Assembly: GCF_008807075.1 (NCBI RefSeq)
Contig: NZ_CP035632.1
Coordinates: forward strand, 1,922,001-1,986,000
Source of the DNA: Synechococcus sp. RSCCF101
Lineage (GTDB): Bacteria; Cyanobacteriota; Cyanobacteriia; PCC-6307; Cyanobiaceae
Direction of reading: 5' to 3'
Length of the DNA stretch: 64,000 nucleotides
The notes below the pieces were generated by a model. That model had not been told where the DNA came from. It worked only from the letters and a program-made list of their open reading frames with translations, and did no database searches. This document shows positions 1,092 to 20,896 of this stretch, piece after piece; position 1 is the stretch's first letter; every line of letters starts with the position of its first letter. The position numbers were made by a program, and so were the translations under genes.

Positions 1092-2167
1092 GGCAGGCCG
1101 ATCTGCAGCATTTCCCGGTAGGCCTGGGCCGCTCCCTGGTAGTCGCCCCGCTGCTCGTGCGCACTGGCCAGCAGGGTGAGCAGATCGCGGCAGGGGCCGT
1201 GCTCATCGGCCAGATGGCTGAGCAACTGGGCCGCCTCCTCGTTGTGGCCCCGCTCCACCCCTTTGCGGGCGAATTCCAGCCAGCTCTCGCGCGGCAGGAC
1301 CTGGGGATCGTGCTGCAGCAGCTGATGACGCAGCTTGAGGGCGGTGCGGGGATCACCGGCCCGCACCTCCGCGGTGGCGAGGTTGCGCAGCAGGGCGCTG
1401 CGCAGGCGTTCATCAGCCGTCTCGTACTGAGCGGCGTAGGCCCGCCGCAGGCGCTGCAGTGCCGCGCCCGGGCGCTTGAGGCTGAGCTCGGCGGCGCCGG
1501 CGTTCACGGCGGCCTCCAGCAGCTCGGGATCGAGCGCCAGTGCCCCCTCCAGGAGCTCGAGGGCCGGCACGAGGCGTCCCAGCATCAGCTGGGCCTTGCC
1601 CTCCAGGGCCAGGGCCTCGGCCGGCCAGGGCTGATCGGCCTCCAGCTGGCCGCGCAGCTCCTCGACAACGCTCAGCACCGTCTCGGCGTTCTCCGGCGTG
1701 AGGCGCTCGCGCAGCTCCTGCACCTCCTCCAGCAGCTCGTCCGCGCTGAGGCGGCCCGCTTCCGATGCGGTCTCCGCAGGATCTGTGTCCTCGTTGAAAG
1801 CCTCCCCGGGCTCAGAGTCGGCACCGCTGTCGGCGCCACCCGGACCCTGGCGTTCCGGCTCGCTGAGCCGCTCGGCCTCCAGGGCCGCTTCCAGCAGACC
1901 CTGCAGGTCGCCGCTGGAGCCGAGGGCGCTGGCTTCGGTCGGGGCGGCGCCGCCCAGCTGGGCCTTGAGCTGGTCGCGTTCCGCCAGCAGCAGGGTGAGG
2001 GCCTGGCGGTAGAAGGGCACCGCCAGCTCCATCGCCCCCCGCGTGTTCATCGCCTCGGCCATGGCGTAGTAGCGGTCGGCCAGGCCGCCGTTCTCCGGCG
2101 TGCCGGGGCTGGCCTCGGCAGCCCCGCTGGCCGGGGTGGTGGGGCGGGTGCGGCGGCGACGGGGCAA
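1088..2167 (-). CDS. TPR-repeat protein with acidic linker
   Basis: This 359-residue protein starts with a basic, Pro/Thr-rich tail (MPRRRRTRPTTPAS) from a TTG codon at 2167. A TPR-like helix pair follows (DRYYAMAEAMNTRG, LAVPFYRQALTLL). Next comes an acidic low-complexity stretch around residues 100-140 (Glu/Ser/Gly/Ala), then about five more TPR-like units to the end (GDYQGAAQAYREML). No enzyme motif is visible. It is the first gene of a two-gene unit, its stop overlapping the next TPR start. It is divergent from the GT2 gene, with 69 bases between starts. The TTG start is the least certain part; later ATGs at the first TPR helix are possible. Confidence 0.7.
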   Translation of the reverse strand: MPRRRRTRPTTPASGAAEASPGTPENGGLADRYYAMAEAMNTRGAMELAVPFYRQALTLLLAERDQLKAQLGGAAPTEASALGSSGDLQGLLEAALEAERLSEPERQGPGGADSGADSEPGEAFNEDTDPAETASEAGRLSADELLEEVQELRERLTPENAETVLSVVEELRGQLEADQPWPAEALALEGKAQLMLGRLVPALELLEGALALDPELLEAAVNAGAAELSLKRPGAALQRLRRAYAAQYETADERLRSALLRNLATAEVRAGDPRTALKLRHQLLQHDPQVLPRESWLEFARKGVERGHNEEAAQLLSHLADEHGPCRDLLTLLASAHEQRGDYQGAAQAYREMLQIGLP

Positions 2168-2236
2168 GGGTCTGGTTCCGGGGGCGGTGCGTGGGTGCTG
2201 CAGACTGCTCCCAGTGCAGGGGCAGAGAGCCGCGCC

Positions 2237-3241
2237 ATGCTCGCATCACCGGTCATGTCGGTGGTGATGCCCTTCCGGAATGCCCGCCGCTGGCTGCCGC
2301 GCACCCTGGTGGCCCTGGCCGGTGAACGGAGCACACCCTTCGAGCTGGTGGCCATCGACGACGGCAGCAGCGATGGCAGCGCCGAGCTGGTGCAGCGCCT
2401 CACCCACAGCTGGGGACCGGGCCGGGTGCAGATCCACGCCACCGGCGGCATCGGCGTGTCCTCGGCCCGCAACCTGGGAGTGAACCGGGCCCGCTCGCCG
2501 CTGATCGCCTTTCTCGATGCCGACGACCCGCCGCTGCCGGGGCGGCTGGCCCAGCCCCTGGCTCGGCTCGAGCAGGAATCCGGCCTGGCCCAGGTGCTGG
2601 GCGGCTGGCGCCGCATCGACGAGCGCGGCCGGGTGATCAATGCCGTGCGGCCCTGGCAGGAGGGGGCGGGCTTCAGCCTGCTGCAGGTGTACGGCCTCAA
2701 GGCGGTGCTGCCCAGCGCCTGGACGATCCGGCGCACGGTGTTCGAGAGCGTGGGCGGCTTCGATCAACGGCTGCGCCATGCCGAGGATGTGGATCTGCTG
2801 CTGCGGCTGGCGGCCCAGCGCCACGGCGGCGCCTGGATCGAGGAGCTGCTGGTGGATTACCGGCAGCACCCGGGCGGAGCCACCCGCCGCTGGCGCGAGC
2901 AGATCGATGTGATCCTCGATGTGATGGAACGGGCCCTGCCCCTGCTGCCGGCCGACCGGCGGGGCTGGGGCCTGGAGAACGCCTACTTCACCGCCCTGTG
3001 GTGCGTGTGGAAGATCTGGTGCGAGGGCGCCCAGGACGACGGCAGCGAGCACGTGCTCTCCGTGCTCGCCCATGCCCGCCGCTTCTGCACCATGCCCCTG
3101 GTGCGGCGCATGCCCCACTTCCTGGAAACCATGGCCCGCACGGCCCGCTACGACGGTATGCCGCTCGACCGTGAGGCCTTCCTGGCCTCTCCCCTCTACC
3201 GGCGCGTCGTGGCCGTGCTCACGGAGCCGGCGGCATGCTGA
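2237..3241 (+). CDS. Family 2 glycosyltransferase
   Basis: This 334-residue enzyme has the GT-A fold signature of GT2: N-terminal SVVMPFRNA, nucleotide-binding AIDDGSSDGS around residue 40, and the metal-binding FLDADDP near residue 93. The acceptor-side motif GGFDQRLRHAEDVDLLLRL follows near residue 174, ending in the ED pair typical of the catalytic base region. It should transfer a sugar from a nucleotide donor to a growing glycan at the cytoplasmic face; donor and acceptor cannot be read. The ATG at 2237 follows a weak GAGAG; an ATG at 2255 is equally possible. The stop overlaps the start of the GT61 gene by 7 bases. The frame is open far upstream, but that part is antisense to the TPR genes. 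Confidence 0.85.
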   Translation: MLASPVMSVVMPFRNARRWLPRTLVALAGERSTPFELVAIDDGSSDGSAELVQRLTHSWGPGRVQIHATGGIGVSSARNLGVNRARSPLIAFLDADDPPLPGRLAQPLARLEQESGLAQVLGGWRRIDERGRVINAVRPWQEGAGFSLLQVYGLKAVLPSAWTIRRTVFESVGGFDQRLRHAEDVDLLLRLAAQRHGGAWIEELLVDYRQHPGGATRRWREQIDVILDVMERALPLLPADRRGWGLENAYFTALWCVWKIWCEGAQDDGSEHVLSVLAHARRFCTMPLVRRMPHFLETMARTARYDGMPLDREAFLASPLYRRVVAVLTEPAAC

Positions 3242-4854
3242 CCCGGCTCGAGCAGAAGAGCCTGCACGACCAGGCCCTCCTTGATCTGGTGATGGGCCAC
3301 CCCGTGCGTTGCCTCCGCGCCTGGCGTGAACTGCTGCTGCTGGAACCCCGCCGGGTGAAGGAGCACCTTGAGGTGGCCCGGGCGAGCCTGGATGCCGACG
3401 CCCTCGCCGGACTCCGCCAGCGGGCCATCGCACTGCTGCAGGCCCTGCTGGACGGCTCCCCGGGGGAGACCGAGGTGAACCTGCTCGGAGAGGTGCTGCG
3501 GGGCTGGGGGGATCGCTTTCTCGATGAAGCGCCGGATCGCGCCCTCGACGCCTATGAGCGCGCCTGGACCTGCGGCGACCACGAGACCCTCGCCCCGAAA
3601 CTGGCCGACCTCTACTACCGGCAGGGCATGGAGGAGGGGGCCTGGGCCCTGGCGGAGCCGAGGCCGCACCCCGGCGCCTCCCCCTGGCCCGAGCTTCCCT
3701 GCCCGGCCAGCGACTGCGGCACCTGCCAGACGCTGGTGGGACTCCAGGCCCGGGAACGTCCGGCCCCCGGTCCCCAGGCCGATCCCAGCCAGAGCTGGCC
3801 TGTGCAGGCCATCAGGGGCGGGGCCATCTGGGTGCACCGCCATCTCGATCCCTGGCGCCAGACCGGTGCCGTGGCCGTGCTCGATGCCAATGGCGAGCTG
3901 CAGCTTCCCCTCTGCCGCCTCTACCCCCACCCCTGGGCCCCCTGCCGCCAACGGCCGGCGTTCGAGCGCCACATGGCCGCCCAGCTGGTGGCCCGCACCG
4001 CCGATCCCCGCCACCCGAAGCTCCGGCGGCTGACCGGCAGCGTGCTGGCGGTGGCCGATCTCTCGGCCGAGAACTACTTCCATTGGCAGCTGGAGACCCT
4101 GCCCCGCCTCGGCCGCTGCTGGCGCCACCTGGCCCCCCGGATTCCCGATCTGCGGCTGTGGCACAACGGCGGTGCCCATCCCTGGGTGCACGAAGGGCTC
4201 ACCCGGCTCGGCATTCCCCCCGAGCGGCGACTCAACGCCGATCGGCTGCCCGCGCTCCAGGCCGACTGGCTGCTGGTGCCCGAGCCCTCACCCTTCGGCG
4301 CCCCCTGCGCCGGCAACCTGGCCTGGCTGGAGCAGTTCTGGACGGTCCCTCCGCCGCAGGCTTCTGGCATGCGCACCCTCCGGCGGCAGGACCAACCGCC
4401 GGCCGAACGGCCCGCCCACTGGATCCGCCGCGGTCTGGGGCCGCGGCGGCCCGTGCTGGGGGAGGCGGCCGTTGTGGCGCGCCTGGAGGGAGCGGCAGGC
4501 AGCAACGCAGGCGGCACCACACGCCAATCGATCCGCCGGCAGCTGCAACAGGTGGGCCGGGCCGGCATGGTGATCGCGCCCCACGGCGCCGGCATGGCCA
4601 ACCTGCTGGCCGCCGCCACCGACGCCCTGGTGGTGGAGATCGTGAATCCCGCCTACGCACCGCCCTACTTCCACTCCACCCTCCAGCGCCGCGGCTGCCG
4701 CCACCTGGCCCTGCCCGCCGCCCAGACGCCACTGCCCCTGCAGGAGCTGCTCTATGAGAGCCCCCTGGCCGCACCGATCGATCTCGGCGGCGACCACAGC
4801 CCGGCGGCCGTCTGGCTGCGGAACAACGATCTGGCCCCCTCCACCGTCGGCTGA
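3235..4854 (+). CDS. DUF563 / family 61 glycosyltransferase with helical N-terminus
   Basis: This 539-residue protein has two parts. Residues 1-140 are helical and TPR-like (RAWRELLLLEPRRVKEHLEVA, DRALDAYERAWTCGD). Residues 200-520 carry the GT61/DUF563 signature: ENYFHWQLETLPRL near residue 280 and IAPHGAGMANLLAAA near residue 447, the hallmark of the family. GT61 enzymes transfer xylose, GlcNAc or other sugars; a xylosyl role would suit the UDP-xylose synthase-like gene elsewhere in the window but is not shown. It is translated with the preceding GT2 gene (7-base overlap). The next gene starts 34 bases downstream. Confidence 0.85.
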   Translation: MLTRLEQKSLHDQALLDLVMGHPVRCLRAWRELLLLEPRRVKEHLEVARASLDADALAGLRQRAIALLQALLDGSPGETEVNLLGEVLRGWGDRFLDEAPDRALDAYERAWTCGDHETLAPKLADLYYRQGMEEGAWALAEPRPHPGASPWPELPCPASDCGTCQTLVGLQARERPAPGPQADPSQSWPVQAIRGGAIWVHRHLDPWRQTGAVAVLDANGELQLPLCRLYPHPWAPCRQRPAFERHMAAQLVARTADPRHPKLRRLTGSVLAVADLSAENYFHWQLETLPRLGRCWRHLAPRIPDLRLWHNGGAHPWVHEGLTRLGIPPERRLNADRLPALQADWLLVPEPSPFGAPCAGNLAWLEQFWTVPPPQASGMRTLRRQDQPPAERPAHWIRRGLGPRRPVLGEAAVVARLEGAAGSNAGGTTRQSIRRQLQQVGRAGMVIAPHGAGMANLLAAATDALVVEIVNPAYAPPYFHSTLQRRGCRHLALPAAQTPLPLQELLYESPLAAPIDLGGDHSPAAVWLRNNDLAPSTVG

Positions 4855-4888
4855 ACCGCCGCCCCTCTGCACCCCGTCTGCCAACCCT

Positions 4889-6177
4889 GTGGTCCAGCTC
4901 CCCACCGATCTCGCCGAGGCCCTCACCGCACTGGGCGAGGATCCGGGCCCGGCGGGCCACGATCCGGCCCTGTTCGAGCGCGTCTCCCGCTGGCGGCTTG
5001 CCTGCGGCGACTCGGTGGAGGCGGGGCGCTGGCACCTCTGGAGCCTGATGCCGCCCGAACCGGAGGCGCTGCGCCCCGCCCTGGCCGACCTCTGGCGCAA
5101 CGCGGGGGACACGACAGCCGCGGAGCGGAGCCTGGCCGGCCGGGAGACCTGGCAGACCGTGGCCCTGCTGCTGGACCAGGGCCGGCTCGATCCGGCCCGC
5201 ACCCTGCAGGAGGAGCTTCTGGCCAGCCAGGAGCCGCTGCAGGAGGCCCTTCTGATGACACTGGCGGAGCAGTGGAACAAGCAGGAGCGCCACCGCCAGG
5301 CCCTGGAGCTGCTGGAACCCCTAGAGCGCCACCACAGCACCCAGGGCAGCCCCCTGGCCCCGCCCTTCCTCAACCTGCTGGCCCACACCCACCGGCGGGC
5401 GGGCCAGCCGCTGCAGGCCCTGCAGCGCTTCCAGCGCAGCCTGGTGGCCCAGCCCCGCCAGCCCCAGGTGCGGCTGCACCTCTCCCAGATCGCGCTCGAC
5501 GAGCTGAACCGGCCCGACCTGGCCGCCCAGACCGTGCAGCAGGTGCTGGTGGACGATCCGAATCACCCCTGGGCCACCGCCCTGCTGCGCCGGGCGCTGC
5601 GGGCGATGGGGGCCTGGGGCTCGCTGCTGCTGCTGCGGCGCCAGGACGACCCGGCCGCCAGGGGCTGGTATCCATTGCCCAGGGGCACGCAGCGCCGGCG
5701 CCGGAGCTGGCTGCAGGCCCTGGAGGCCGCTGGAGCCCCGACCCCGGCCTCGCGCGTGCTGCGCAACCCACCCCGCCCCGTGTCGCCCGGGCTGCTCCCC
5801 CCAGACAGCCGCGACTGGGCTCTCTGGGGGATCCTGACGGTGCCAGCCTCGCGCTCTGGTGTCGGGCGTTGCGAGAGGGGCCGGAGGACGCACCCCGCCC
5901 GGGCAGGCTCTGGCTGCTGGGCAGCCCCGATCCCCTGCTCGCCCGGGCCAACTGCCTGGACTGGTTGGAGGGCACCGCGGTGGAGGTGCTGCTCTGGCCC
6001 GCCTGGGATGGACCGCTGCTGGAGGCCGTGGGGACCCTGGTGCTCCGCCGCTCCCTGCTCCGGCCAGCTGCCGGTCAGGCCAGCCCGGTGCCCTGGGAAC
6101 GACTCCGGCAGCAGCGGGTGACGGTGATCGGCTGGCCGCCCGGCGCGGCCGACTGGTGCCGGCTGGACGCCTCCTGA
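4889..6177 (+). CDS. TPR-like protein, frameshifted at a G5 run
   Basis: The protein begins at GTG 4889 (VQLPTDLAEALTALG) and runs about 314 residues with TPR-like helices (RHRQALELLEPLERHH, QPLQALQRFQRSLVAQP). After DSRDWALWG the first frame turns into Arg/Pro/Cys-rich sequence. The -1 frame continues sensibly (DPDGASLALWCRALREG) to a TGA at 6177. The switch falls on GGGGG at 5826-5830; one extra G would restore a single protein of about 429 residues. No catalytic motif is seen. It follows the GT61 gene and may serve the same glycan locus. The break may be a sequencing error, a real mutation or, least likely, programmed -1 slippage. Confidence 0.6.
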
Positions 6178-6280: not shown

Positions 6281-6886
6281 ATGTCCACCGTCATCACTGG
6301 AACTGAAGTCACCGCCACCGACGAAGACCTCTCCGGCGACAACGGCCGCCAGGTTGAAGTGAGCGGTGGCAACGGCGACACCACCTCCCGCATTGTCGAC
6401 TTCCAGAACGTCACCGCCGGTGACCCCGTCGACACCGGCGCCGCCACGAGCGGCGGCGGCACCATCGCTTCCAACGCCCCCGCCGGCGCTCCGGTGATCG
6501 ACGGCGTTTACTTCAACTCCGGCGCCGGCAACGACGCCATCGCCGGCAGTGGCGCCAACGACTTCATCCGTGCCGGTGCTGGCGACGACATCATCAACAC
6601 CGGTGATGGCGACGACGTGGTTCGCGGAGGTTCCGGCAGCGACACCATCACCCTCGGTGGTGGTGCCGACACCGTGTACTACACGATCGACCAGCTGGAC
6701 GGCAGCACCGATACAGTCACCGACTTCAGCTCCGATGACAAGATCAGTCTCGACAGCGACGTCTCGGCCAGCATCTCCGGAAACGTCATCACCTTGACCG
6801 GTGCTGACGGCCGCACTTCCACCCTGCTCCTCCCCGAAGGCCAGGACTACGAAATTGATGATGACGGCGACATCGTCGTTGGCTGA
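6281..6886 (+). CDS. Small RTX calcium-binding protein, likely type I secreted
   Basis: This 201-residue, very acidic protein has about six hemolysin-type nonapeptides between residues 81 and 134 (GAGNDAIAG, GAGDDIINT, GDGDDVVRG, GSGSDTITL). These fold into a calcium-binding beta roll. Next comes the hydrophobic/acidic pattern common in C-termini of type I substrates (DTVTDFSSDDKISL), then an Asp-rich end (DYEIDDDGDIVVG). There is no N-terminal signal peptide and no double-glycine leader, as expected for C-terminally signalled export. The genes just downstream encode a foldase, exporter and adaptor, making this their probable cargo. A strong terminator follows, so it can be expressed apart from the machinery. 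The function outside the cell is unknown. Confidence 0.85.
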   Translation: MSTVITGTEVTATDEDLSGDNGRQVEVSGGNGDTTSRIVDFQNVTAGDPVDTGAATSGGGTIASNAPAGAPVIDGVYFNSGAGNDAIAGSGANDFIRAGAGDDIINTGDGDDVVRGGSGSDTITLGGGADTVYYTIDQLDGSTDTVTDFSSDDKISLDSDVSASISGNVITLTGADGRTSTLLLPEGQDYEIDDDGDIVVG

Positions 6887-6965: not shown

Positions 6966-7754
6966 TTGCCCGTTCTTCACTGGCCTGATTCGGAGCTGCT
7001 GGCTCATCTGCTTCGCGCCGATCTCCTCCGAGGCTGGCTCACCCATCAGCTGCAGCACGCGCTGTGCACGGAGGCCGTTCCGGGGCTCAGCTCCGAGCCC
7101 GCCGAGATGGCCGATCCCCCTCGGCTGGCCCAACTGGGCTGCGTCAATCCGGCCGACTGGCCGGCCTGGTGTGAGGACCGAGGTCTGCCGCCTGATGTGC
7201 TAAGCGACACACAGGGCCTCCGAGGCCATCTGGCGGAGCTGAAGCGGCAGGCCTTCGCCACCGAAGCCGAGGAGCTGTTTCTGGCTGAGCGCAGCCGCTT
7301 CGCTGAGGTGCTCTTCCACGCCCTGCAGAGCGACGATGCCGGCCTCGCCCAGGAATGGTTCTTTCAGCTCAAGGATGGGGAGGCCAGCCCCAGTGATCTG
7401 GCGCCCTTGAGCACCGGGCCCTCACGCCGCACCGCCGGTCTGATCGGGCCGATCCGGATTCGCCAGCTCCAACCCCCGCTCGACACCCTGCTGCTGCGCA
7501 GCGACCCGGGCGGCATCCAGCCGCCCCTGCCGCTTCCGGATGGCGCCTGGCTGGTGCTGCAGCTGCTTGAGAAGGTTCCGGCACAATGGGACGCCGCACT
7601 GGAAGGCGAGGTGGTGGAGCAGCTCTGGAGCCGCTGGCTCGGCCGAACGGTGCGGGATCTGCTCCGGCAGGGGCCCCTCCCGGGTGAGGAGCAGCGCTTC
7701 GGCTGGCCCGGTCAGCTCGCTCCACCCACTCCTGATCGTCCGGAGGCGGCCTGA
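6966..7754 (+). CDS. Peptidyl-prolyl isomerase-like protein of the type I secretion block
   Basis: This 262-residue protein starts at a TTG just after the terminator and has no signal peptide. The N-terminal half is helical (LLAHLLRADLLRGWL). A stretch of Arg, Phe and Glu-rich helices follows (ELKRQAFATEAEELFLAERSRF), and residues 145-245 resemble the parvulin (PpiC/SurA) domain (GLIGPIRIRQLQPPLDTLL, GGIQPPLPLPDGAWLVLQLLE). The parvulin match is partial, so activity is uncertain. Such genes often sit directly before HlyB-type exporters in cyanobacteria. The stop and the next ATG share one base (TGATG), so it is translationally coupled to the exporter. It may keep the RTX cargo in an exportable state. 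Confidence 0.65.
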   Translation: MPVLHWPDSELLAHLLRADLLRGWLTHQLQHALCTEAVPGLSSEPAEMADPPRLAQLGCVNPADWPAWCEDRGLPPDVLSDTQGLRGHLAELKRQAFATEAEELFLAERSRFAEVLFHALQSDDAGLAQEWFFQLKDGEASPSDLAPLSTGPSRRTAGLIGPIRIRQLQPPLDTLLLRSDPGGIQPPLPLPDGAWLVLQLLEKVPAQWDAALEGEVVEQLWSRWLGRTVRDLLRQGPLPGEEQRFGWPGQLAPPTPDRPEAA

Positions 7755-10700
7755 TGGTGTCCTCGTCCAGCCTGCCCGCCCCGATCCTGCAGCAGTCCTG
7801 GCTGGCCCACGGCTCGGCCGATCTGCGCGAGGCGATCAAGCGCCACCTGCAGTGGGTGCGCTACCGGCCCGGCCAGACCATGCTGCAGCGCGACCGACTG
7901 CCCCATCAGGTGATGTTCATCGCCGATGGCAAGGCCCGGCTCGTTGCCGATTCCCCCCAGACCGGCCCCTTCACCCTGGCCCGCCTCGGACCGGGTGATG
8001 CCATCGGCTGGTGCGGCCTGGTGCGCGAGCAGCCCTGCGAAACGGTGCTGGCCATGGATCACACCCTGGTGGGCGCCATCCAGGCCAAGGTGTTCCTCGA
8101 TCTGCTCAAGCGCTTCGGCTCCCTGCGGCAGGACTGCCGGGCCCCCGCCCTGGCCGAGATGGCCGAGGTGCTCTTCGCCTGGCTCGAGCGGCAGCCCTTC
8201 CGTCTGGAGGATCCCACCGCCCTGCTGGAGACCCTCTGGGGCAATCACGCCGGCGGCATCGCGGTGGATGCCGAACTCGGTCCCCCCGCCGATCGCCTTG
8301 ATCCCAACCTGCTCTGGCTCTGGAGCAACCCACCGGGGCAGGATCAGGCCCCCGGCGACGAGCTCGAACGCTGGCCAAAGCGGGTCCCGCACGGCCCCAT
8401 CGGCATGGGCTGCCGGGCCCTGGGTCTGCCCCGCCAGCCGATCGAGGAAGCCCTCGAACGCAGCCGGGTCAGCTCCACGCGCCGGCAGAGCCACACCGCG
8501 CCCGAGCCCCTCTGGGACACCGCCACCGAGGCGCCGGATCTCGAGGACCCGATCGCGCCGGAGGATCTCGGCCTCACCCGGCGGGTGCGCCGGCTGCCAC
8601 CCCTGCAGGAGCGGGGCGACTCGCCCTACGCCTCGGCCATGGTGACCCTGCAGCGGCTGGCCAGCCTCTACCGCTTCCCCTTCCCGCGCGACACGGTGCA
8701 GCAGGTGCTCTTCGACTGCGAGGAGCGGCTCGGCGGCATCTCCCTGCTGCACCTGGGCCAGTTGCTCGAAAGCCTCGGGCTGGAGGTGCGGCCGCTCAGC
8801 TGCAGCGGCAGCGAGTTCCACCGGCTCGAACCCCCCGCCCTGCTGCGGCTGGATGGGCGCTTCGTGTTGCTCGAGGAAGCCGGAGCCTCCGGCATCCAGC
8901 TCTCGGACCCGGCCCAGGGCGTGCGCCTGCTGCCCCTGCGGGAGCTACGCCGCCTCTTCCCCGATCGCACCCAGCTGATGCTGGTGCGGCCGGCGGAGAC
9001 CGCCGCCGAAGACGAACGGGCCAGTCGCTTCGATCTGGCCTGGTTCTGGGAGGCCCTGGCGCCCTACCGGCCCCAGATGGCGCTGGTGTTGCTCGCCGGC
9101 TTCGTGGCCAAGGTGCTGGAGCTGGTGTTTCCGCTCTCGATCTTCCAGATCCTCGATGTCGTGGTGGGCGGCAACAATCCCGCCCTGCTGCGGCCGATCG
9201 TGCTGGTGCTGGCGGTGGTGCTGGTGGTGCTGAGCATCCTCAACTGGCTCAAGGCCATGCTGCTCGCCGATCTTTCCGACCGGATCGACACCCGCCTCGG
9301 CAGCCAGGTGGTGGGCCACCTGTTCCGCCTGCCGCTGAAGTTCTTCGACCGGCGCACGGTCGGCGACCTGAGCAGCCGCTTCAGCGACCTAACCAAGGTG
9401 CGCAAGTTCCTCACCGAAACCGCGCTGAGCACCGTGCTCGACCTGGTGATGATCCCGATCGTGGCGCTGGTGCTGTTTCTGATCAGCCCACCGCTTGCCC
9501 TGCTCATTCTGCTGCAGGTGCCCCTGCTGCTGATGCTGAACCGCGTCACCGGTCTTCCCTCCAAGCGCCTGCTCACCCGACGCAACCAGGCCTGGGGCAG
9601 AGCTCAGGGCTTCCTGGTGGAAACGCTCACGGCGATCCGCACGGTGAAGAGCCAGAACTTCGCCACCCAGGCCCGCTGGCAGTGGCTCGATCGCTATCGC
9701 CTCTACACCGCGGTGGACTTTCGCTACGGCAAGCTGCGCGTCAGCAACGCCGTGGCCACCAAAGCCATTGCCCTGGGCTTCCGCGTCGCTGTGTTTGCCA
9801 CCGCCGCCTGGATGGCCGTGGAGGGCACCGGGTCGGTGGGATCGATTGTCGTGATCTTCATCCTCGGCAGACAGCTGATTGCTCCGCTGATCAATCTCTC
9901 CACCTTCTCGGATCAGTACCGGGAGGCCAAAGCCTCGATGGATGGCCTGGCCGATGTGCTCGGTCAGGTGCCGGAGGAATCGATCGATCGGGCCGGCCTG
10001 CTGCCCTTGCCCCGCGTCAACGGTCGGGTGGACTTCGAGCGTGTGAGTTTCGGCTATGGCGTGTCCAGTGAGCCAGTGCTCGATCAGTTCTCTCTGGCCA
10101 TCGCTGCCGGCAGTTTCGTCGGCCTGGTGGGTCTGAGCGGCAGCGGCAAGAGCACCGTGGTCCAGCTGATCGATGGCCTCTACAAGCCCCTGCAGGGCCG
10201 CATCTACCTCGACGGCGTCGACATCAACAAGGTCCAGATCGGCAGCCTGCGCCGCCAGGTGGGCTTCGTGCCCCAGGAATCGATCCTCTTCGACGGCACC
10301 ATCATCGAGAACCTGCGTCTGAACATGCCCGACGCACCGTTCGATGCCGTGGTGGAGGCCGCCACCACCGCCTGCGCCCACGATTTCATCATGGCTCTAC
10401 CGGATGGCTACAACACCCGCGTGGGCGAGCGGGGCGGCGCCCTCTCCGGCGGCCAGAAGCAGCGCGTGGCGATCGCCCGCATGGTGCTCCAGAACCCCAA
10501 TCTGGTGATCCTCGACGAGGCCACCTCCGCCCTCGACACCACCACCGAACAGCTGGTGCTGCAGCGCCTGCGGCGTCGCTTCGCCGGCTGCACCCTGATC
10601 GTGGTCACCCACCGGGTGAGCACCCTGAGGGAGGCCGATCGGATCCTGCTCATGGAGGGGGGAGCCGTTCTGGAGGACGGCTCCTGGGAGGATCTGCTGC

Positions 10701-10765
10701 AGCGGGGCGGCAGCTTCGCCGGCCTGGCCACCCAGCCCGTCAACGTCGTTGTGGAGGACGCATGA
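7754..10765 (+). CDS. Type I secretion ABC exporter with cNMP-binding and degenerate C39 domains
   Basis: This is a 1003-residue inner-membrane exporter. Residues 20-130 look like a cyclic-nucleotide-binding (Crp-like) domain (YRPGQTMLQ, RLGPGDAIGW). Residues 295-410 are C39 peptidase-like. However, the usual catalytic Cys position reads YASAMVTLQ and the His position reads DGRFVLL, so it should bind rather than cut cargo, as in HlyB. Six membrane helices span about 435-700. The ATPase has Walker A GLSGSGKST (near 794), signature LSGGQKQR (near 896), Walker B LVILDEATS (near 916) and H-loop VVTHR. It overlaps both neighbours by 1-4 bases. No TolC is in the window. Confidence 0.9.
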   Translation: MVSSSSLPAPILQQSWLAHGSADLREAIKRHLQWVRYRPGQTMLQRDRLPHQVMFIADGKARLVADSPQTGPFTLARLGPGDAIGWCGLVREQPCETVLAMDHTLVGAIQAKVFLDLLKRFGSLRQDCRAPALAEMAEVLFAWLERQPFRLEDPTALLETLWGNHAGGIAVDAELGPPADRLDPNLLWLWSNPPGQDQAPGDELERWPKRVPHGPIGMGCRALGLPRQPIEEALERSRVSSTRRQSHTAPEPLWDTATEAPDLEDPIAPEDLGLTRRVRRLPPLQERGDSPYASAMVTLQRLASLYRFPFPRDTVQQVLFDCEERLGGISLLHLGQLLESLGLEVRPLSCSGSEFHRLEPPALLRLDGRFVLLEEAGASGIQLSDPAQGVRLLPLRELRRLFPDRTQLMLVRPAETAAEDERASRFDLAWFWEALAPYRPQMALVLLAGFVAKVLELVFPLSIFQILDVVVGGNNPALLRPIVLVLAVVLVVLSILNWLKAMLLADLSDRIDTRLGSQVVGHLFRLPLKFFDRRTVGDLSSRFSDLTKVRKFLTETALSTVLDLVMIPIVALVLFLISPPLALLILLQVPLLLMLNRVTGLPSKRLLTRRNQAWGRAQGFLVETLTAIRTVKSQNFATQARWQWLDRYRLYTAVDFRYGKLRVSNAVATKAIALGFRVAVFATAAWMAVEGTGSVGSIVVIFILGRQLIAPLINLSTFSDQYREAKASMDGLADVLGQVPEESIDRAGLLPLPRVNGRVDFERVSFGYGVSSEPVLDQFSLAIAAGSFVGLVGLSGSGKSTVVQLIDGLYKPLQGRIYLDGVDINKVQIGSLRRQVGFVPQESILFDGTIIENLRLNMPDAPFDAVVEAATTACAHDFIMALPDGYNTRVGERGGALSGGQKQRVAIARMVLQNPNLVILDEATSALDTTTEQLVLQRLRRRFAGCTLIVVTHRVSTLREADRILLMEGGAVLEDGSWEDLLQRGGSFAGLATQPVNVVVEDA

Positions 10766-11889
10766 GCAAGCCCGTCGTGCAGCGGGGCGCTCGGAGCCGC
10801 GGTCGGCTCAGCCTCAGCCAGCAGCAGCGCGAGGAAGAGGCCCTTCGCCTGGAGAGCCGCCCGTCACCGGTGCTGAGCTGGGTACTTGCGGGATCCCTTT
10901 CCGCCCTGGCCGCCACGGCGGCTGTGGCCGTGGCCACCGTTCAGGTGGACCAGATCGTGTCGATTCCCGGCAAGCTGGTGACCCGTCGCAGCACCCAGGA
11001 GCTCGGCACGCCCAGTGCCGGCGTGATCCAGCAGGTGCTGGTGCGCAACGGCGATCGGGTGGAGGCCGGCCAGCCCCTGCTGATCCTCGATCCCCAGGTG
11101 CAACGCTCCGATGTGACCGAGCTGCGCCTGCAGCTGGAAGCCGAAACCTCCCGCCTCGACAGCGAGGCCGACCGCCTGCGCGAACGCATCTATGGCCTGG
11201 AGCGACAGCTGGTCATCGATGAGGAGGTGCTCGCCCCCCTCAAGCAGCTGGCGGGAGCCGGCGCCGCCGCCAATCTGCAGGTGCGGCAGCAGGAGCGCGT
11301 GCTGGAGGGGACCCGCCGCGAGCTGGAGGAAGCCCGCGAAGCCCTGGAGAGCGTGCGCTTTGAGTCCGACCGCAGCCGGGCCCGCCTGCGCCAGGAACTG
11401 GCCCAGGCGGAATCCTCGCTCGAGCTCGTGACCCTGCGGGCCCCGGTCTCCGGCGTGGTGATCGACCTGCGGGCCCAGAGCGGCCAGGTGGCCTTCCCCA
11501 CCAGCCCCGAGCCTCTGCTTCAGCTGGTGCCGGACGATGACCTGCAGGCCCAGGCCTTCGCCCCGAACCAGGACCTGGCCTTCATCAGGGCCGGCCAGGA
11601 GGCCGAGATCGCCCTGTCCGCCTACGACTCCTCCCTCTACGGCCGGCTGCCGGCCACCGTGGCACTGGTGAGTCAGGATGCCCTCCCACCGGACGAGATT
11701 TACCAGTACCCCCATTTCCCGATCACGCTGGAGCTGGAGCAGCAGGTGCTCGAGCGCAACGGTCAGACCTTCGAGCTGCAACCCGGCATGGCCCTCACCG
11801 CCCAGATCAAGCTGCAGAAACGCACCCTGCTGCAGCTCTTCTTCAGCCGCTTCAACCAGGGCCTCGACGCCGTGCGCACGATGCGCTGA
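10762..11889 (+). CDS. HlyD-type membrane fusion protein of type I secretion
   Basis: This 375-residue periplasmic adaptor has a basic cytoplasmic tail, one membrane segment at about residues 34-56, and a biotinyl-lipoyl half-motif (SAGVIQQVLVRNGDRVEAGQPLLIL). A long coiled coil follows (residues 112-225), then the second lipoyl half (LRAPVSGVVIDLRAQSGQV) and a beta-barrel region. It should link the ABC exporter to an outer-membrane TolC channel. Its ATG overlaps the exporter stop by 4 bases. The coiled coil is shorter than in E. coli HlyD (478 residues overall there). Confidence 0.9.
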   Translation: MSKPVVQRGARSRGRLSLSQQQREEEALRLESRPSPVLSWVLAGSLSALAATAAVAVATVQVDQIVSIPGKLVTRRSTQELGTPSAGVIQQVLVRNGDRVEAGQPLLILDPQVQRSDVTELRLQLEAETSRLDSEADRLRERIYGLERQLVIDEEVLAPLKQLAGAGAAANLQVRQQERVLEGTRRELEEAREALESVRFESDRSRARLRQELAQAESSLELVTLRAPVSGVVIDLRAQSGQVAFPTSPEPLLQLVPDDDLQAQAFAPNQDLAFIRAGQEAEIALSAYDSSLYGRLPATVALVSQDALPPDEIYQYPHFPITLELEQQVLERNGQTFELQPGMALTAQIKLQKRTLLQLFFSRFNQGLDAVRTMR

Positions 11890-11945: not shown

Positions 11946-12791
11946 ATGCCCGCCGACGCGAATAACCCGTTCATCATCTATTCCTCGGCGCGAACAGGCT
12001 CCAACCAGCTGATTCAGTGGCTGAACAGGCATCCCCTGATCCAGTGCCACTACGAGGTCTACAGCCCCAACAACGTCTACACCCTGCCGCCCCGGCCGCA
12101 GGAGATGGGCCTCCGGGATCAGGATCCCGTGGCCTTCATGCAGCGCCTGTTCACCGATGCGGCCAAACCGGTGGTGGGGTTCAAGATCTTCCCCGATCAA
12201 TGCGAGGCCGTGATCACGGCGTCCCTGCAGGATCGCTGCATCAGCAAACTGATCCTGTACCGGGCCAATGTGCTCGCCCAGCACGCCTCGATGGAGGAGG
12301 CGCTACTGCGCAATCGCTGGGTCACACTGAAATCCGATCTCCCACAATCAGCCAGCGATGAGGGTCAGGCTGAGGATACAGAGCAAGACGCCAAACCCAG
12401 CTTCGATGCCGATCGATTCGAACGCTTCGCGGCCAAGATTGCAGGCTTTTACGCCCATCTGATGGAGCAGCTGCTGATCAGTCAGCAGCCGGCCCTGGTG
12501 TTCGAATACACCCAGATCTTCAACCCGCTGCTGGTGGAGAATCTCGCCGCATCGCTGATCGCCCCCTCGCCGGCAGCCGCCTCAACAGGGCGGGTGGCCA
12601 TTGATGCCTCCAACCGACATGCGTCCGGTCATCACAAGACGGGAAGCTTCGTGATCCCCGATCGCTTCAGCAACCCCCACACGGTGCTCGATCACCTCAC
12701 CGCTACCGGCCAGATGCACTACGCCATCGAGGTGATGCAGACCTGGTCGCCGGCCCCTCAGCCCGCCACACCCAGCCGTTCGCCGCTGTAG
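11946..12791 (+). CDS. Sulfotransferase-family protein
   Basis: This 281-residue protein opens with IIYSSARTGSNQLIQWLN. It is a PAPS-binding P-loop-like motif in the SxRTGS form seen in Stf0-like and glycan sulfotransferases. PAPS would supply sulfate to a sugar or lipid hydroxyl. The 3'-phosphate-binding arginine is less clear; ISKLILYRANVLAQHASM near residue 100 is the best candidate. A hydrophilic acidic insertion lies near 135-155. It begins 56 bases after the hlyD-like gene with no terminator between, so co-transcription is possible. Its 3' end overlaps the convergent rfbB by 34 bases. Codon use looks slightly less GC-biased than its neighbours. Confidence 0.65.
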   Translation: MPADANNPFIIYSSARTGSNQLIQWLNRHPLIQCHYEVYSPNNVYTLPPRPQEMGLRDQDPVAFMQRLFTDAAKPVVGFKIFPDQCEAVITASLQDRCISKLILYRANVLAQHASMEEALLRNRWVTLKSDLPQSASDEGQAEDTEQDAKPSFDADRFERFAAKIAGFYAHLMEQLLISQQPALVFEYTQIFNPLLVENLAASLIAPSPAAASTGRVAIDASNRHASGHHKTGSFVIPDRFSNPHTVLDHLTATGQMHYAIEVMQTWSPAPQPATPSRSPL

Positions 12792-16514: not shown

Positions 16515-17261
16515 ATGGCGCATAATCACGTCTCATCAGATCGGCGAAGTGCCGGGAGTGTGTGCACGGTGAGCGCCTCAGCGGAAGCCGATGCCCGCGC
16601 CTTCCGCGCTGAACTCCATCTGAGGCGCCTCTCGGCCAACCCCTACAGCCGTGCCCTGGTGCAGCACGCCGCCGCAGTGGTGGAGCACACCCGGAACGGG
16701 CCCGACGCCGACCACCGCGCCTATCCCCTGTTTCAGCCCGGGCGCGACCAGCACACGCCGTATCACCGCGCCTTCTACGCGCATCACCCCGACGTGGCCA
16801 GCACCTTTGCGGACCTCTGCCGCCAGGTGCTGCGGGACCTGATCGGGGAGCCGGCCTACGTGCAGGTGATCCCCACCTATCGCATCGGCTTTCCGGACAA
16901 CCGCTGGGTGGGCAGCTTCCACCGCGACTCCGATTTCGGCCACTCCCCCTACGAGCTCAACGTGGTCTGCGGCCTCACGCCGATGCACGACACCGCCGCC
17001 CTGCACGTGGAGAACCGGGCCGGCTCCCGCGACTTCGAGCCGATGAACCTCGAGGCCGGCGAGCTGGTGATGTTCGACCATATCGACCGCCTGCACGGCT
17101 GCCCGATCAACAAGGAGAACACAGTGGTGGCCAGCATCGATTTCCGCTTCGTGCCGCTGCGCTTCGCCGAGCCGGCCTTTGCGGCGGCGGCCCGCAGCAT
17201 CAACGCCGCCGTGGCCTTCCTGCCGGGCCAGTACTTCAGCCCGGAGCCCCTCACTCCCTGA
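16515..17261 (+). CDS. 2OG-Fe(II) oxygenase-like protein
   Basis: This 248-residue protein carries a plausible iron-binding facial triad: His and Asp in [11 protein letters not shown] and a distal His in [12 protein letters not shown]. Downstream Arg in ASIDFRFVP could bind 2-oxoglutarate. This pattern is shared by StrG-like/phytanoyl-dioxygenase-like proteins found in sugar clusters. The reaction is unknown; hydroxylation of a sugar, lipid or peptide is possible. Two starts fit: ATG 16515, right behind a GGCAGGGGG run, or GTG 16569, preceded by GGGAG. The homologous region begins near residue 26, so either is possible. It is 1 base from the downstream RgpF-like gene and divergent from rfbA. 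Confidence 0.65.
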
Positions 17262-17262
17262 C

Positions 17263-18339
17263 ATGGGCCTGAGAAGTCGGGGCCGCAAGGTGGGCAAATC
17301 CCTGCTCAAGCAGCTGCTGCTCGAGTCCGCGCAGCTGCGGGAACGGCTCATGCGACCGGTGCTGGCCCGCCGGCGTCGCCGCTGGCTGGAGGCCATCCGC
17401 CGCCTGGAGCGGGTGGAGGAGCTGCAGTGGCATCCGGGAACCGAGCCGGCGCCGCATCCGCTCGTGCTGCTCTCCCACTACGCCCCTGGCGGCCATCTGC
17501 AGCGGGCGATCCGCCGCCTGATCGCCCACCTGCGCGATCAGGGCTGGCAGGTGCTGATCCTCACCACAGCCCTCAACGACACGGCCCGCCGCTGGTGCAG
17601 CGAGCGGAGCGTGCACTGGCTGATCCGCCGCAACGAGGGGCGTGATTTCGGCGCCTTCCAGGACGGCTGGCTCACCCTGCAGCAGCGCGGCCTCGCCGAG
17701 GCCTGCAGCCGCATCCTGCTGCTCAACGACAGCAGCCTGCCGGTGGCCGACCTGGCCGGCTCCAGCCTGCCCCGTCTGCTGGAGGGCGACGACGACGCGA
17801 TCGTGGGCCTCACCGATTCCTTCCAGAACGGCTACCACCTGCAGAGCTACGCGCTCAACTGCCCGGAAACTGTTATCCGCAGCGCCTGGTGGCACGGCTT
17901 CTGGTGGAGCTTCCCGGGCTGGTCCGGCACCGCCGGCATCATCCGCGATGGCGAGATCGGCCTCTCGCGCCAGGCCCTGCAGGCCGGCCACCCGCTGCGG
18001 GCCCTGCATCCGGTGTCGCGGCTGCGCACGGTGGGCGGGCAGGAGGAGTTCCTGCGCCGGCTGCAGGAGCGCTGCGGCTACTCGCGCCATGCCGCCCAGC
18101 TGCTGCAGGAGGCCGTGCTCGAGCAGGCCCGCGATGCCTTCGCCACCATGAATCCCACCCATGATCTGGTCCTGCCTCTGCTGCTGGAGGGGTGTCCCCT
18201 GATCAAGCGCGATCTGCTCGAGAGCAATCCCTGCGACTGCCTCGATCCCTCCCTGATCGCCTTCGGGGAACCGCCGCTGATCGACCCCCTCGATCTGGTG
18301 GACTTCCTGCGCCCGCCCCTGATCGGGTTCAAGCAGTAA
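17263..18339 (+). CDS. RgpF-like rhamnan-synthesis family protein
   Basis: This 358-residue protein has the features of the rhamnan synthesis protein F family. LLSHYAPGGHLQRAIRRLI suits an N-terminal glycosyltransferase-like fold. RRNEGRDFGAFQDGW and ILLLNDSSLPV are family hallmarks, and GLTDSFQNGYHLQSYAL follows. In streptococci RgpF adds rhamnose to a polysaccharide backbone. Here the neighbouring rhamnose operon and ABC exporter agree with a role in a rhamnose-containing glycan. The ATG at 17263 is next to the oxygenase stop. The gene is convergent with the permease gene (38 bases apart). Confidence 0.8.
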   Translation: MGLRSRGRKVGKSLLKQLLLESAQLRERLMRPVLARRRRRWLEAIRRLERVEELQWHPGTEPAPHPLVLLSHYAPGGHLQRAIRRLIAHLRDQGWQVLILTTALNDTARRWCSERSVHWLIRRNEGRDFGAFQDGWLTLQQRGLAEACSRILLLNDSSLPVADLAGSSLPRLLEGDDDAIVGLTDSFQNGYHLQSYALNCPETVIRSAWWHGFWWSFPGWSGTAGIIRDGEIGLSRQALQAGHPLRALHPVSRLRTVGGQEEFLRRLQERCGYSRHAAQLLQEAVLEQARDAFATMNPTHDLVLPLLLEGCPLIKRDLLESNPCDCLDPSLIAFGEPPLIDPLDLVDFLRPPLIGFKQ

Positions 18340-18377: not shown

Positions 18378-19199
18378 CTAAAGCCAGCGCAGGATCCGCA
18401 TCCGCTGGCGGTCGAGCCGCAGCAGCAACAGCAGAGCCAGCGGGATCTGAACGGCCAGGGCGACCAGCTGCGCGCCCCAGGCCATCTCACCGGTGAGCGG
18501 AGCCCGCAGCAACTGGACCATGGCATAGAGAGGATTGAAGCCGGCCACCCATTGCAGGGGGCCCAGGCTGCGGGAATAGAACAGGATCGGCGAGGAGAGA
18601 AAGGCGATCTGCAGCAGGATCGGCATGATCTGGGGCAGATCCGCCAGCCGGGCCGAGAGGGGCGCCAGCAGCATCGCGATCCAGAGGCAGGCCAGCAGCA
18701 GATTGGCCAGGCCCAGCCAGCCACCGGCGAGGAAGTGCAGCAGCACCAGCGGCTGGATCAGCGCCAGCAGGGCCAGGCCCACCGCCAGGCTGATCAGGGC
18801 TCCCAGGCAGATGGTGAGCCACTCCTCGATCACCGTCAGCCCGGGTGGGAAGGGCTGATTGAGCAGCCGCTCGCGCGAGCGCTCCATCAGGGTGCAGCTG
18901 CCGGTGATGGCGGTGGAGAGGGTGTTCCAGGCGATCAGCCCCACCGCCACGTACACGGCGTAGCTGGGCCAGTCGCGGATGCCGGTGAGGTTGCCGTAGA
19001 TCGTGCCGAGGATCGCGGCACTGAGCACCGTGGAGATTCCGATCCAGCGGCTGCCGAGTCGGGTGCGGGAGAACTGCACGATCAGCCGCAGCCGGGCTCC
19101 GTAGAGCACCGCGGGCAGCAGCCGCAGGTACAGCCTCAGGCCGGCGGGAAGCGCCAGCCGGCGAGCCGCCGGCGCGGGGGGAGATGGGATGTCGCTCAT
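18378..19199 (-). CDS. ABC-2 type polysaccharide export permease (Wzm/TagG-like)
   Basis: This 273-residue integral membrane protein has six predicted helices. The cytoplasmic start LIVQFSRTRLGSRWIG is the conserved entry of Wzm/KpsM/TagG permeases. SSPILFYSRSLGPLQWVAGFNPLYAM near residue 205 is the characteristic C-terminal loop. It should form the channel for a lipid-linked or nascent polysaccharide across the inner membrane, powered by the ATPase encoded just upstream. The ATG overlaps the ATPase stop by 4 bases. Confidence 0.9.
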   Translation of the reverse strand: MSDIPSPPAPAARRLALPAGLRLYLRLLPAVLYGARLRLIVQFSRTRLGSRWIGISTVLSAAILGTIYGNLTGIRDWPSYAVYVAVGLIAWNTLSTAITGSCTLMERSRERLLNQPFPPGLTVIEEWLTICLGALISLAVGLALLALIQPLVLLHFLAGGWLGLANLLLACLWIAMLLAPLSARLADLPQIMPILLQIAFLSSPILFYSRSLGPLQWVAGFNPLYAMVQLLRAPLTGEMAWGAQLVALAVQIPLALLLLLRLDRQRMRILRWL

Positions 19200-20896
19200 G
19201 CGGCCATACCCTTGTAGAGCTGCAGAGCCCGGAACAGCGTGCCCTCGAAACGGATGCGGCCCTGCTCGAGGATGATTCCGCGGCTGCAGTAGCGCTGCAG
19301 CAGCACATTGGAGTGGGAGGCCAGCACGAGGGTGCCGGCCCGGTCGATGAAGGCATCGAGCTGGCGCCGGGCCTTGCGCTGGAACCACTGATCCCCGGCG
19401 CCCAGCCCCTCGTCCAGGGCCAGGCCCTGCACCCGGCGGCCTGTGGTGAGGGCGAAGGACAGCCGCGTCTGCATGCCCAGCGACCAGGTCTTCAGGGGCG
19501 TGGCAAGCGCCTCCCCCAGCTCGGTGAACTCCTGCACCCGGGCCAGGAAGGCGGGCCACTCCACCTGATCGGCCAGGTGCAGCAGGTGGTAGTGGCGGCA
19601 GCACTGCAGGCCGGTGAGCTCACGACTGTAGCCCAGGCTCTGGTCGATGATCGGGGCCAGCGGTTCCCCGTGGCGGCTGAGGGTCCCGCCGGTGGGCTGG
19701 TAGATGCCGCTCAGCAGCCGCAGCAGGCTGGTCTTGCCGCTGCCGTTGTGCCCCAGCAGCCCCACCCGCTGACCGCCGCTGATGGTGAGCGTGATGTCGC
19801 TCAGCACGGCACGGGGTTCGCCGGTGCCCGGCTCACGGCCGCCGCGCTCACGTCCCGCCCGGCCGCGCAGCCGCAGCTGCACCCCATCCAGGTGATGGAA
19901 GGGCACGTCGTCGCGGCGCCACTGGGCCAGCTGCTCCGCGCTTGCGTGCTGACGCGGCCCCTCCAGCCCGGCCAGCTCGGCCTCATCGAGCTCCGGGGCC
20001 AGCAGCTGGGCCCGCCCCCGCTCCTCGGCCAGGGCATCGCCCAGGGCGTGGCGCCGCCGACTCTCCAGAGCCAGCAACTGCTGCAGGAGATGGGGATCCC
20101 CGTTCACCGACGCCTCCACATCCTGCAGCAGCCCCTCTCGCACCGCTCCGGCGCGATCGGCCTCGCTCAGCCCCCGATGGAACCGCAGCGCCAGGGCCTG
20201 CAGGTCCGGCGGCACCTCCTCCACCCGCTCCGGGCAGCGCGGCAGCTCCCGCCGCTGGAACAGGGGCTCGCCGTGCCATGCCAGGTGCTCCAGCCGCGCC
20301 AGCTCAGCGCCGGCATCGACCACCAGCCGCTCGAAGCTCACGATCGGCCAGGCCAGACCTTCCCGCCGCAGATAGCCGATCAGCTCCAGGTTGTGCCGCA
20401 ACCAGAGCGAGAGCGCCTTCACCGCAGGCATGTCATCGCGGTACCCGATCGACTGCACCACGGCCAGCGGATGGCGCACGATCGCCACCCCGGCGGCCAT
20501 CCGTGCCGGCCCCAGAAGCCGGTGCCAGAACGGCAGCGTGCGGCAGAGACGCGGATCCTTCAGGGCGAGTGGTCCATCGCCCTCCATCCAGCGCCGAATC
20601 AGGCCCTCGGCCTCCATCTCGAGGCTGGGGCTCAGGCTGGTCCGGCGGCAGGGGTCCATCGCCCAGCTGGCATCCCACGGGCTCTCCTGCAGGGCCAGGA
20701 TCGATTCGTTCACCGCCACGAAATCGGCCGACTCCTGAAATCCCTCCGGGTTGTCGGCGGTGGGGGGCAGCAGATTGGGCGGTAGCCGCACCCCCGCTGG
20801 CAGCAGGCAGCGGGTCAGCAGGGAGGTGCCGCTGCGGTGCATGCCGGCAACCCAGAGCAGCGATGACTGCGGTGCACCTGAGGCCGAGCGACCCAT
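19196..20896 (-). CDS. Sulfotransferase fused to Wzt-type ABC exporter ATPase
   Basis: This 566-residue protein is one uninterrupted frame with two enzyme domains. Residues 10-300 are a sulfotransferase: VAGMHRSGTSLLTR (residues 16-29) is the PAPS 5'-phosphosulfate loop and VAIVRHPLAVVQSI (137-150) the 3'-phosphate motif. Residues 310-566 are a polysaccharide-exporter ATPase: Walker A GHNGSGKTS near residue 380, signature TWSLGMQTRLSFA, Walker B LALDEGLGAGDQWFQ and H-loop ASHS. The SLGM signature and the GAGD motif are typical of Wzt/TagH-type subunits. It is coupled to the Wzm-like permease by a 4-base overlap. The inference is a transporter that sulfates glycans as they are exported. The C-terminal carbohydrate-binding domain of some Wzt proteins is absent. 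Confidence 0.85.
   Translation of the reverse strand: MGRSASGAPQSSLLWVAGMHRSGTSLLTRCLLPAGVRLPPNLLPPTADNPEGFQESADFVAVNESILALQESPWDASWAMDPCRRTSLSPSLEMEAEGLIRRWMEGDGPLALKDPRLCRTLPFWHRLLGPARMAAGVAIVRHPLAVVQSIGYRDDMPAVKALSLWLRHNLELIGYLRREGLAWPIVSFERLVVDAGAELARLEHLAWHGEPLFQRRELPRCPERVEEVPPDLQALALRFHRGLSEADRAGAVREGLLQDVEASVNGDPHLLQQLLALESRRRHALGDALAEERGRAQLLAPELDEAELAGLEGPRQHASAEQLAQWRRDDVPFHHLDGVQLRLRGRAGRERGGREPGTGEPRAVLSDITLTISGGQRVGLLGHNGSGKTSLLRLLSGIYQPTGGTLSRHGEPLAPIIDQSLGYSRELTGLQCCRHYHLLHLADQVEWPAFLARVQEFTELGEALATPLKTWSLGMQTRLSFALTTGRRVQGLALDEGLGAGDQWFQRKARRQLDAFIDRAGTLVLASHSNVLLQRYCSRGIILEQGRIRFEGTLFRALQLYKGMAA

Follow-up and report, generated by a model that had tools for sequence, protein, structure and literature searches.

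The locus raises the question whether a sulfotransferase and the ATPase of a polysaccharide exporter are encoded by one gene and, if so, whether sulfation of a surface glycan is tied to its export. How glycan modification is kept in step with export is understood for a few systems only, and little is known of sulfated surface glycan synthesis in picocyanobacteria; with the sulfating enzyme and the exporter motor in a single gene, the question can be put to the test on one protein, which can be split, mutated or swapped. The window is the whole stretch of 64,000 nucleotides analysed here, from Synechococcus sp. RSCCF101. The gene and its partner were found to be arranged as follows.

19196..20896, minus strand: fused sulfotransferase-Wzt ATPase (P0001), an uninterrupted frame of 566 aa, stop codon within the coordinates
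20282..20866, minus strand: predicted sulfotransferase core, residues ~11-205 (30-row alignment A8, AF2 model, Foldseek and VIA)
19892..20281, minus strand: linker, residues ~206-335, partly helical (alignment and codon-position analysis)
19199..19891, minus strand: Wzt-type NBD, residues ~336-566 (Pfam ABC_tran; NF050108; PDB RfbE and TagH profiles; motif survey)
18378..19199, minus strand: Wzm-like permease, 273 aa (ABC2_membrane 1e-9 in Pfam; galactan_ABC_perm 3e-19 as best NCBIfam)

A sequence-only reading had proposed a single intact frame of 566 residues without naming its strand. The frame was borne out on the minus strand (20896..19196), and the plus strand at 19196..20896 was found not to encode the fusion. 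The SGTS loop claimed at residues 22-25 was present as HRSGTS (20-25) within GMHRSGTS (18-25), and the claimed ATPase motifs were all located, with Walker A GHNGSGK at 382-388 followed by the SLGM signature at 472-475 and DEGLGAGD at 495-502. The reported 4-base overlap with the Wzm-like permease was also seen, the ATPase stop and the permease start sharing ATGA at 19199-19196. The central claim of that reading, a sulfotransferase and a Wzt-like ATPase in one gene adjoining a Wzm-like permease, was supported, and the fusion was found to be kept in four lineages.

Full-length orthologues with 53-55% identity were found in three other genomes among the 400 family genomes sampled (G104, G149/AG-412-I05 and G294), spanning two other genera. 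The search of one genome per species (84,980 species) yielded AG-412-I05 (L040), a full-length relative that is 49% identical in its best segment; it comes from a single cell and is catalogued as Prochlorococcus sp., and G149 and L040 are one and the same contig. The four fusion proteins were found to align end to end, with all indels in frame. Identity to the window copy was 50% in the sulfotransferase part, followed by 39-42% in residues 216-300, 25-27% in residues 301-360 and 64-66% in the ATPase. The linker of ~130 residues (~206-335) was 25-42% identical across the four fusions, and its codon positions were found to change mostly in a coding pattern, with third positions the most variable, except in residues 301-360 of the window copy, where the second codon positions were unusually divergent (0.54-0.63). 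An assembly error can be dismissed, because three other genomes encode the fusion at full length, their indels all keep the frame and substitutions fall mostly in third positions; the reality of the fusion beyond chance or misassembly is confirmed. A frameshift or missed stop at residues 290-320, which had been named as a possible separation of two genes, was ruled out by the frame held across the linker in the three other genomes and by the mostly third-position change. Nor were the homologues consistently two proteins, since full-length fusions exist; separate proteins are nonetheless commoner.

The fusion was contained in 4 of ~400 genomes within the family, and a redrawn family sample gave no additional one. 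The genera of G104 and G149 were found to contain it in 2/31 and 1/5 genomes, respectively, with none beyond those already found, and 390 genomes drawn from the class yielded no fusion outside the family. From the divergence of the orthologues and the sparse hits in the family and class samples, the fusion is an old one, rare and patchily distributed. The fused proteins formed one clade (100/99) in the ATPase tree, beside solo ATPases, so that one origin is the simplest reading of the sequences. The sulfotransferase tree repeated the order of the ATPase tree among the four fusions (window copy, then AG-412-I05, then G104 with G294), as expected if both halves have travelled together since one fusion.

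Some further candidates were rejected. The Wzt of G035, G037, G105, G186 and G272 were not accepted as fusions, as their long N-terminal frames look like out-of-frame read-through of GC-rich upstream DNA. Viral contigs contained no match to the whole fusion or to the fused-sulfotransferase profile, and an anti-phage role was set aside, the PADLOC matches being confined to the ATPase region. A sulfotransferase-Wzt fusion was described nowhere in the open-access literature searched.

In the sulfotransferase half, G18, H20, R21, T24, E55, K113, P115, R116, R141 and S149 were found to be invariant in the 30 rows of alignment A8. The 5′-PSB loop GMHRSGTS (18-25) contained a conserved Arg of the RxG type, and the K113-D114-P115-R116 segment was found within the core. 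At the 3′-phosphate site, R141 and S149 are 8 residues apart, which is the spacing of the PF00685 motif RXXXDXXXS (PMC11625862), with the Asp of the motif absent (A145). The RHP triplet noted earlier at 141-143 was present, with its His found to be variable (H/N/D), whereas R141 and S149 were conserved. The PSB Arg, the PB Ser and a Glu/His between them are described as essential in PAPS sulfotransferases (PMC6637879, PMC11625862), and all three residue types were invariant in the 30 relatives; we infer that E55, between the two PAPS motifs, is the candidate catalytic base.

The family assignment of this half required deeper comparisons. Sulfotransfer_3 (PF13469) was matched by the G104 orthologue (L064) at 30.2 bits against a cut-off of 27, with the window copy below the cut-off, and the Pfam search of the window copy at 0.01 found no sulfotransferase, a null that taken alone would have been misleading. 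The fused-sulfotransferase profile alone gave no match in the PDB, followed by matches of a deeper profile to tyrosylprotein sulfotransferases at 1e-7 to 1e-5; a broader profile drew 41 viral sulfotransferase relatives, which were used solely to deepen the model alignment. The AF2 model of the domain had a mean pLDDT of 76, with >85 over most of residues 11-200, and the model of the full-length fusion (pLDDT 44) was too poor for use. The best matches of the domain model (Foldseek, VIA) were TPST1/2 at Z 14.5-13.7 (TPST1 with rmsd 4.2 and 209 aligned), followed by the olefin-synthase (OLS-ST) and curacin sulfotransferases at Z 13 and the heparan 3-O-sulfotransferases (HS 3-OST) at ~Z 11-11.5. 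With general P-loop kinases at Z 10-11, the TPST rows lead by a moderate margin, and it is sequence and motifs that settle the assignment. The fold and the PSB and PB motifs are common to the fusion and to Sulfotransfer_3, tyrosylprotein and heparan sulfotransferases and NodH, which, unlike the window protein, have no ABC ATPase fused. Residues ~11-205 are apparently a competent PAPS-type sulfotransferase, as judged from motifs and model, and an APS kinase is encoded in the genome, so that PAPS can be made.

The ATPase half was found to contain the Walker A, signature and Walker B Glu of a Wzt-type NBD and to group with ~46 Wzt of the family, with a cognate ABC-2 permease in the operon. The window copy matched ABC_tran in Pfam at 6e-16 over residues 365-496, and its best families were galactan Wzt/RfbE (NF050108) and TagH with scores well below the cut-offs; RfbE and TagH were also the best solved relatives by profile (PDB). 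Viral NBD rows, mostly ABC-F-like and misaligned, were excluded from the alignment. A C-terminal Wzt_C domain was sought in the fusion and was absent, the protein ending with the NBD. The earlier statement that known Wzt carry a C-terminal carbohydrate-binding domain (CBD) is true of one class only; by its sequence, the ATPase half is Wzt-type and of the class naturally without this domain. As this class is CBD-less and a separate Wzt_C-bearing paralogue is present in the genome, there is no visible sign that the sulfotransferase took the place of a CBD. The paralogue is a classical Wzt with a C-terminal Wzt_C at L002:1246-2853 (G000:C1:1824799 region).

Among known systems, the CBD-less Wzm-Wzt exporters (galactan Wzt/RfbE NF050108, PDB 9qfx/9qhw; K. 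pneumoniae O1/O2a; TagGH/TarGH) gave the best profile for both ATPase and permease and are, like the fusion, without a C-terminal CBD; the fusion scores far below the cut-offs of these families, and the window copy is without their gate-helix segment. We know of no CBD-less exporter with an enzyme fused to its ATPase, and none turned up in the open-access papers searched. In E. coli O9a/K. pneumoniae O3 (Wzt-WbdD) and O12 (WbbB), terminal modification is tied to export (PMC11231755), as it may be in the fusion, but the CBD reader is there on Wzt and the modifier is separate with a coiled-coil ruler, whereas in the fusion the modifier is on Wzt and no CBD was seen. The synechan xss cluster of Synechocystis (XssA, XssE) is also cyanobacterial and contains dedicated sulfotransferases for a sulfated polysaccharide (PMC8205485); unlike the fusion, it has Wzx/Wzy-dependent export and free-standing sulfotransferases. 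According to published work, most cyanobacterial sulfotransferases lie in polysaccharide clusters, among them ABC-type ones (PMC8205485).

The fusion suggests a coupling of sulfation to export, which is a reasonable reading. In its specific form, favoured here at somewhat better than even confidence, the protein is a bifunctional ABC-exporter subunit by which cytosolic sulfation of a lipid-linked glycan is physically tied to export. The linker of ~130 residues would join a PAPS-dependent sulfotransferase to a CBD-less Wzt ATPase with the adjacent Wzm-like permease as partner, and the Wzm dimer would carry two copies on its cytosolic side. The sulfotransferase would draw on PAPS synthesised in the cytosol, and the lipid-linked glycan, as a chain or at its growing end, would be sulfated before or while entering the channel. 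The tether would raise the local concentration and help to ensure sulfate on the exported chains. In favour of this reading are the intact frame and the fusion kept in four lineages, the matching trees of the two halves, the invariant sulfotransferase residues, the fold match to TPST and HS sulfotransferases, the APS kinase, the kinship of ATPase and permease to galactan exporters, the placement of cyanobacterial sulfotransferases in polysaccharide clusters, and the occurrence of the sulfotransferase domain near 10/17 unfused Wzt loci and, in G083, directly upstream of the ATPase gene; the tyrosine acceptors of the nearest solved enzymes, the type I secretion system with an RTX protein in the locus and the missing gate-helix segment of the window copy speak against it. 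Decoration or optional capping is expected rather than length-setting or obligatory termination, as neither a CBD that could read a cap nor a long coiled-coil ruler was seen; a ruler was looked for, and the linker contained one predicted helix of ~30 residues (268-298) at low confidence (AF2). In K. pneumoniae O1/O2a, the CBD-less system studied best, the coupling of synthesis to export is obligatory without a cap-reading domain and the terminal pyruvate merely diversifies the chain (PMC11231755), which also makes decoration or optional capping likelier here than obligatory termination. What appears to be new, from the sequences, is that in a few marine-type picocyanobacteria an apparently competent sulfotransferase is built into an ABC exporter of polysaccharide. 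A stronger form, in which the enzyme sits at the mouth of the channel on its cytosolic side, export is confined wholly or mainly to sulfated chains, and the domain is both modifier and selector in place of a CBD, is possible, though we would lean against it.

A plain operon fusion of neighbouring glycan-cluster genes without functional coupling, the sulfotransferase working no differently from a free one and the tether merely fixing stoichiometry, is rather unlikely. The ATPase part alone was matched strongly in ~96/400 family genomes, mostly in frames of 250-300 residues, and G104 and G294 each hold a solo ATPase paralogue besides the fusion. At 10/17 unfused Wzt loci, a sulfotransferase domain of the same kind was found within ~10 kb, in most cases as part of a large protein of glycosyltransferase type (ST-GT2) and otherwise free-standing. 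The ST-GT2 proteins contain a related N-terminal sulfotransferase in a like cluster, but the partner is a glycosyltransferase and not an ATPase. G083 shows the unfused arrangement, in which a free sulfotransferase gene ends ~25 bp upstream of the co-directional ATPase gene. These separate adjacent genes, the many relatives that keep both apart in one cluster, the poor conservation of the linker and the DUF4214 on Prochlorococcus-like Wzt, by which the ATPase N-terminus is seen to tolerate additions, are consistent with mere joining; yet none of the four lineages has split the fusion, despite a deep divergence that leaves 50% identity in the sulfotransferase part.

Near solo Wzt, proteins of 790-944 residues were found to contain an N-terminal sulfotransferase domain (L067:5779-8340, L068:5588-8107, L069:3046-5880, L073, L074, L075, L081 and L082); in the members checked, L067-L069, the domain was fused to a C-terminal GT2 glycosyltransferase. 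The free-standing sulfotransferases L071:10120-11166 (minus strand) and L083:4893-5930 (plus strand) contained, by eye, a coiled-coil-like stretch followed by a basic hydrophobic tail, an architecture that recalls membrane-bound chain terminators such as WbdD. The Prochlorococcus-like Wzt relatives of genus g83 (L080:9741-11099 and L059:1468-2823, both minus strand) were extended at the N-terminus by ~213 residues of another kind, which in L080 pass the Pfam cut-off for DUF4214; frames of similar length were found in ~30 genomes. The N-terminus of this Wzt lineage acquires extra domains, a sulfotransferase in the fusions and DUF4214 in the Prochlorococcus-like relatives.

The window copy itself was found to differ from the other fusions at the gate helix, which lies between the first two NBD strands (beta-1/beta-2) of Wzt and is the presumed binding site of the lipid-linked substrate (PMC6379404). 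The RSLKxxL segment was contained in the other three fusions and was kept, with small variations, by nearly all of the ~46 unfused family members, and the motif survey found it absent from the window copy. The site was occupied by the Arg/Gly-rich RAGRERGGREPGTGEP at residues ~346-360 (window 19820-19865, minus strand), and the second-codon-position divergence of residues 301-360 covers the same stretch. The exporter of the window strain may, on this sequence, be altered, specialised or impaired, and with the gate segment gone, functional conclusions are safer from G104 or G294. That the exporter is impaired or decaying, which would be compatible with the other readings, is suggested by the loss of RSLKxxL in this copy alone among the fusions and by its second-position divergence (0.54-0.63); it is improbable against the intact overall frame, Walker and signature motifs, sulfotransferase residues and permease frame.

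The remaining readings concern the acceptor and the activity of the sulfotransferase half, for which the neighbouring genes in the window are as follows.

983..6121, plus strand: GT2 (983-3241), GT61-like (3235-4854) and TPR protein (4754-6121) (Pfam; synteny with L064, L066)
6281..6886, plus strand: small RTX repeat protein, likely secretion substrate (HemolysinCabind 1e-10, Pfam)
6966..7754, plus strand: PpiC-like protein of the secretion unit (TIGR04500 2e-8, below cut-off; four of four loci)
7754..10765, plus strand: type I secretion ABC transporter with cNMP-binding, C39-like, membrane and ATPase domains (Pfam)
10762..11889, plus strand: HlyD-type membrane-fusion protein of the type I secretion unit (Pfam HlyD_3 4e-20; synteny)
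11946..12791, plus strand: possible second sulfotransferase gene, 281 aa (sub-threshold Sulfotransfer_3, E 0.02, residues 8-49)
16515..17261, plus strand: 2OG-Fe(II)-oxygenase-like protein, 'sporadic carbohydrate cluster' type (TIGR04324 8e-8, below cut-off; four of four loci)
17179..18339, plus strand: RgpF-like (rhamnan synthesis F) putative glycosyltransferase, beside all four fusions; start may be downstream

The four fusion loci were found to have in common the permease, the RgpF-like, 2OG-oxygenase-like, RTX and PpiC-like genes and the type I secretion ABC/HlyD pair. The RgpF match was weak (21.8 bits in the L065 orthologue and 12.4 in the window copy, cut-off 25) and is supported by synteny and alignment A5. 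The RTX orthologue was found directly upstream of the fusion at the other three loci, where the copies of the type I secretion ABC transporter were 56-61% identical. The GT2, GT61-like and TPR gene group was common to the window, G104 and G294 loci, and an rml (dTDP-rhamnose) set, named by eye and by synteny, was contained inside the window cluster.

As tyrosine is the target of the sulfotransferases nearest to it among solved structures, and as the locus contains a type I secretion unit with RTX, the acceptor may not be a glycan. The sulfotransferase half would then modify a protein, such as the RTX protein or a tyrosine of a secreted polypeptide, as RaxST beside RaxAB; raxX-raxSTAB is a precedent for a sulfotransferase beside a secretion pair (PMC6637879). 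A RaxST-type system would have, next to RaxAB, a sulfated peptide with a double-glycine leader; of this pattern, the secretion unit is seen at the locus. Tyrosylprotein sulfotransferases as the closest solved folds, the secretion unit with a small RTX gene at all four fusion loci and the TPR-sulfotransferase gene of G104 agree with a protein acceptor. It is nevertheless quite improbable, as the fusion partner is a polysaccharide-type ATPase and not a secretion ABC protein and the same domain family is elsewhere in these genomes fused to GT2 glycosyltransferases; heparan sulfotransferases also have the same fold.

That the fold is a non-catalytic module binding the glycan end in lieu of the missing C-terminal CBD, as the CBD-less ATPase and the function of a separately supplied CBD in other systems (PMC6379404) might suggest, is very improbable, the PAPS-binding and candidate catalytic residues being invariant and CBD-less Wzt of the same class functioning without such a module.

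The sulfotransferase gene of G104 mentioned above encodes a TPR protein with a Sulfotransfer_1 domain (L064:12073-13590, minus strand) in the fusion locus; relatives were found at the fusion loci of G149 and G294 and at several of the unfused ones, with none found in the window. The PpiC-like, type I secretion ABC and HlyD genes (window 6966-11889) were also found to adjoin polysaccharide exporters at the unfused loci L068, L073, L076, L079 and L081. The presence of a polysaccharide exporter together with type I secretion suggests that the two export routes are durably linked.
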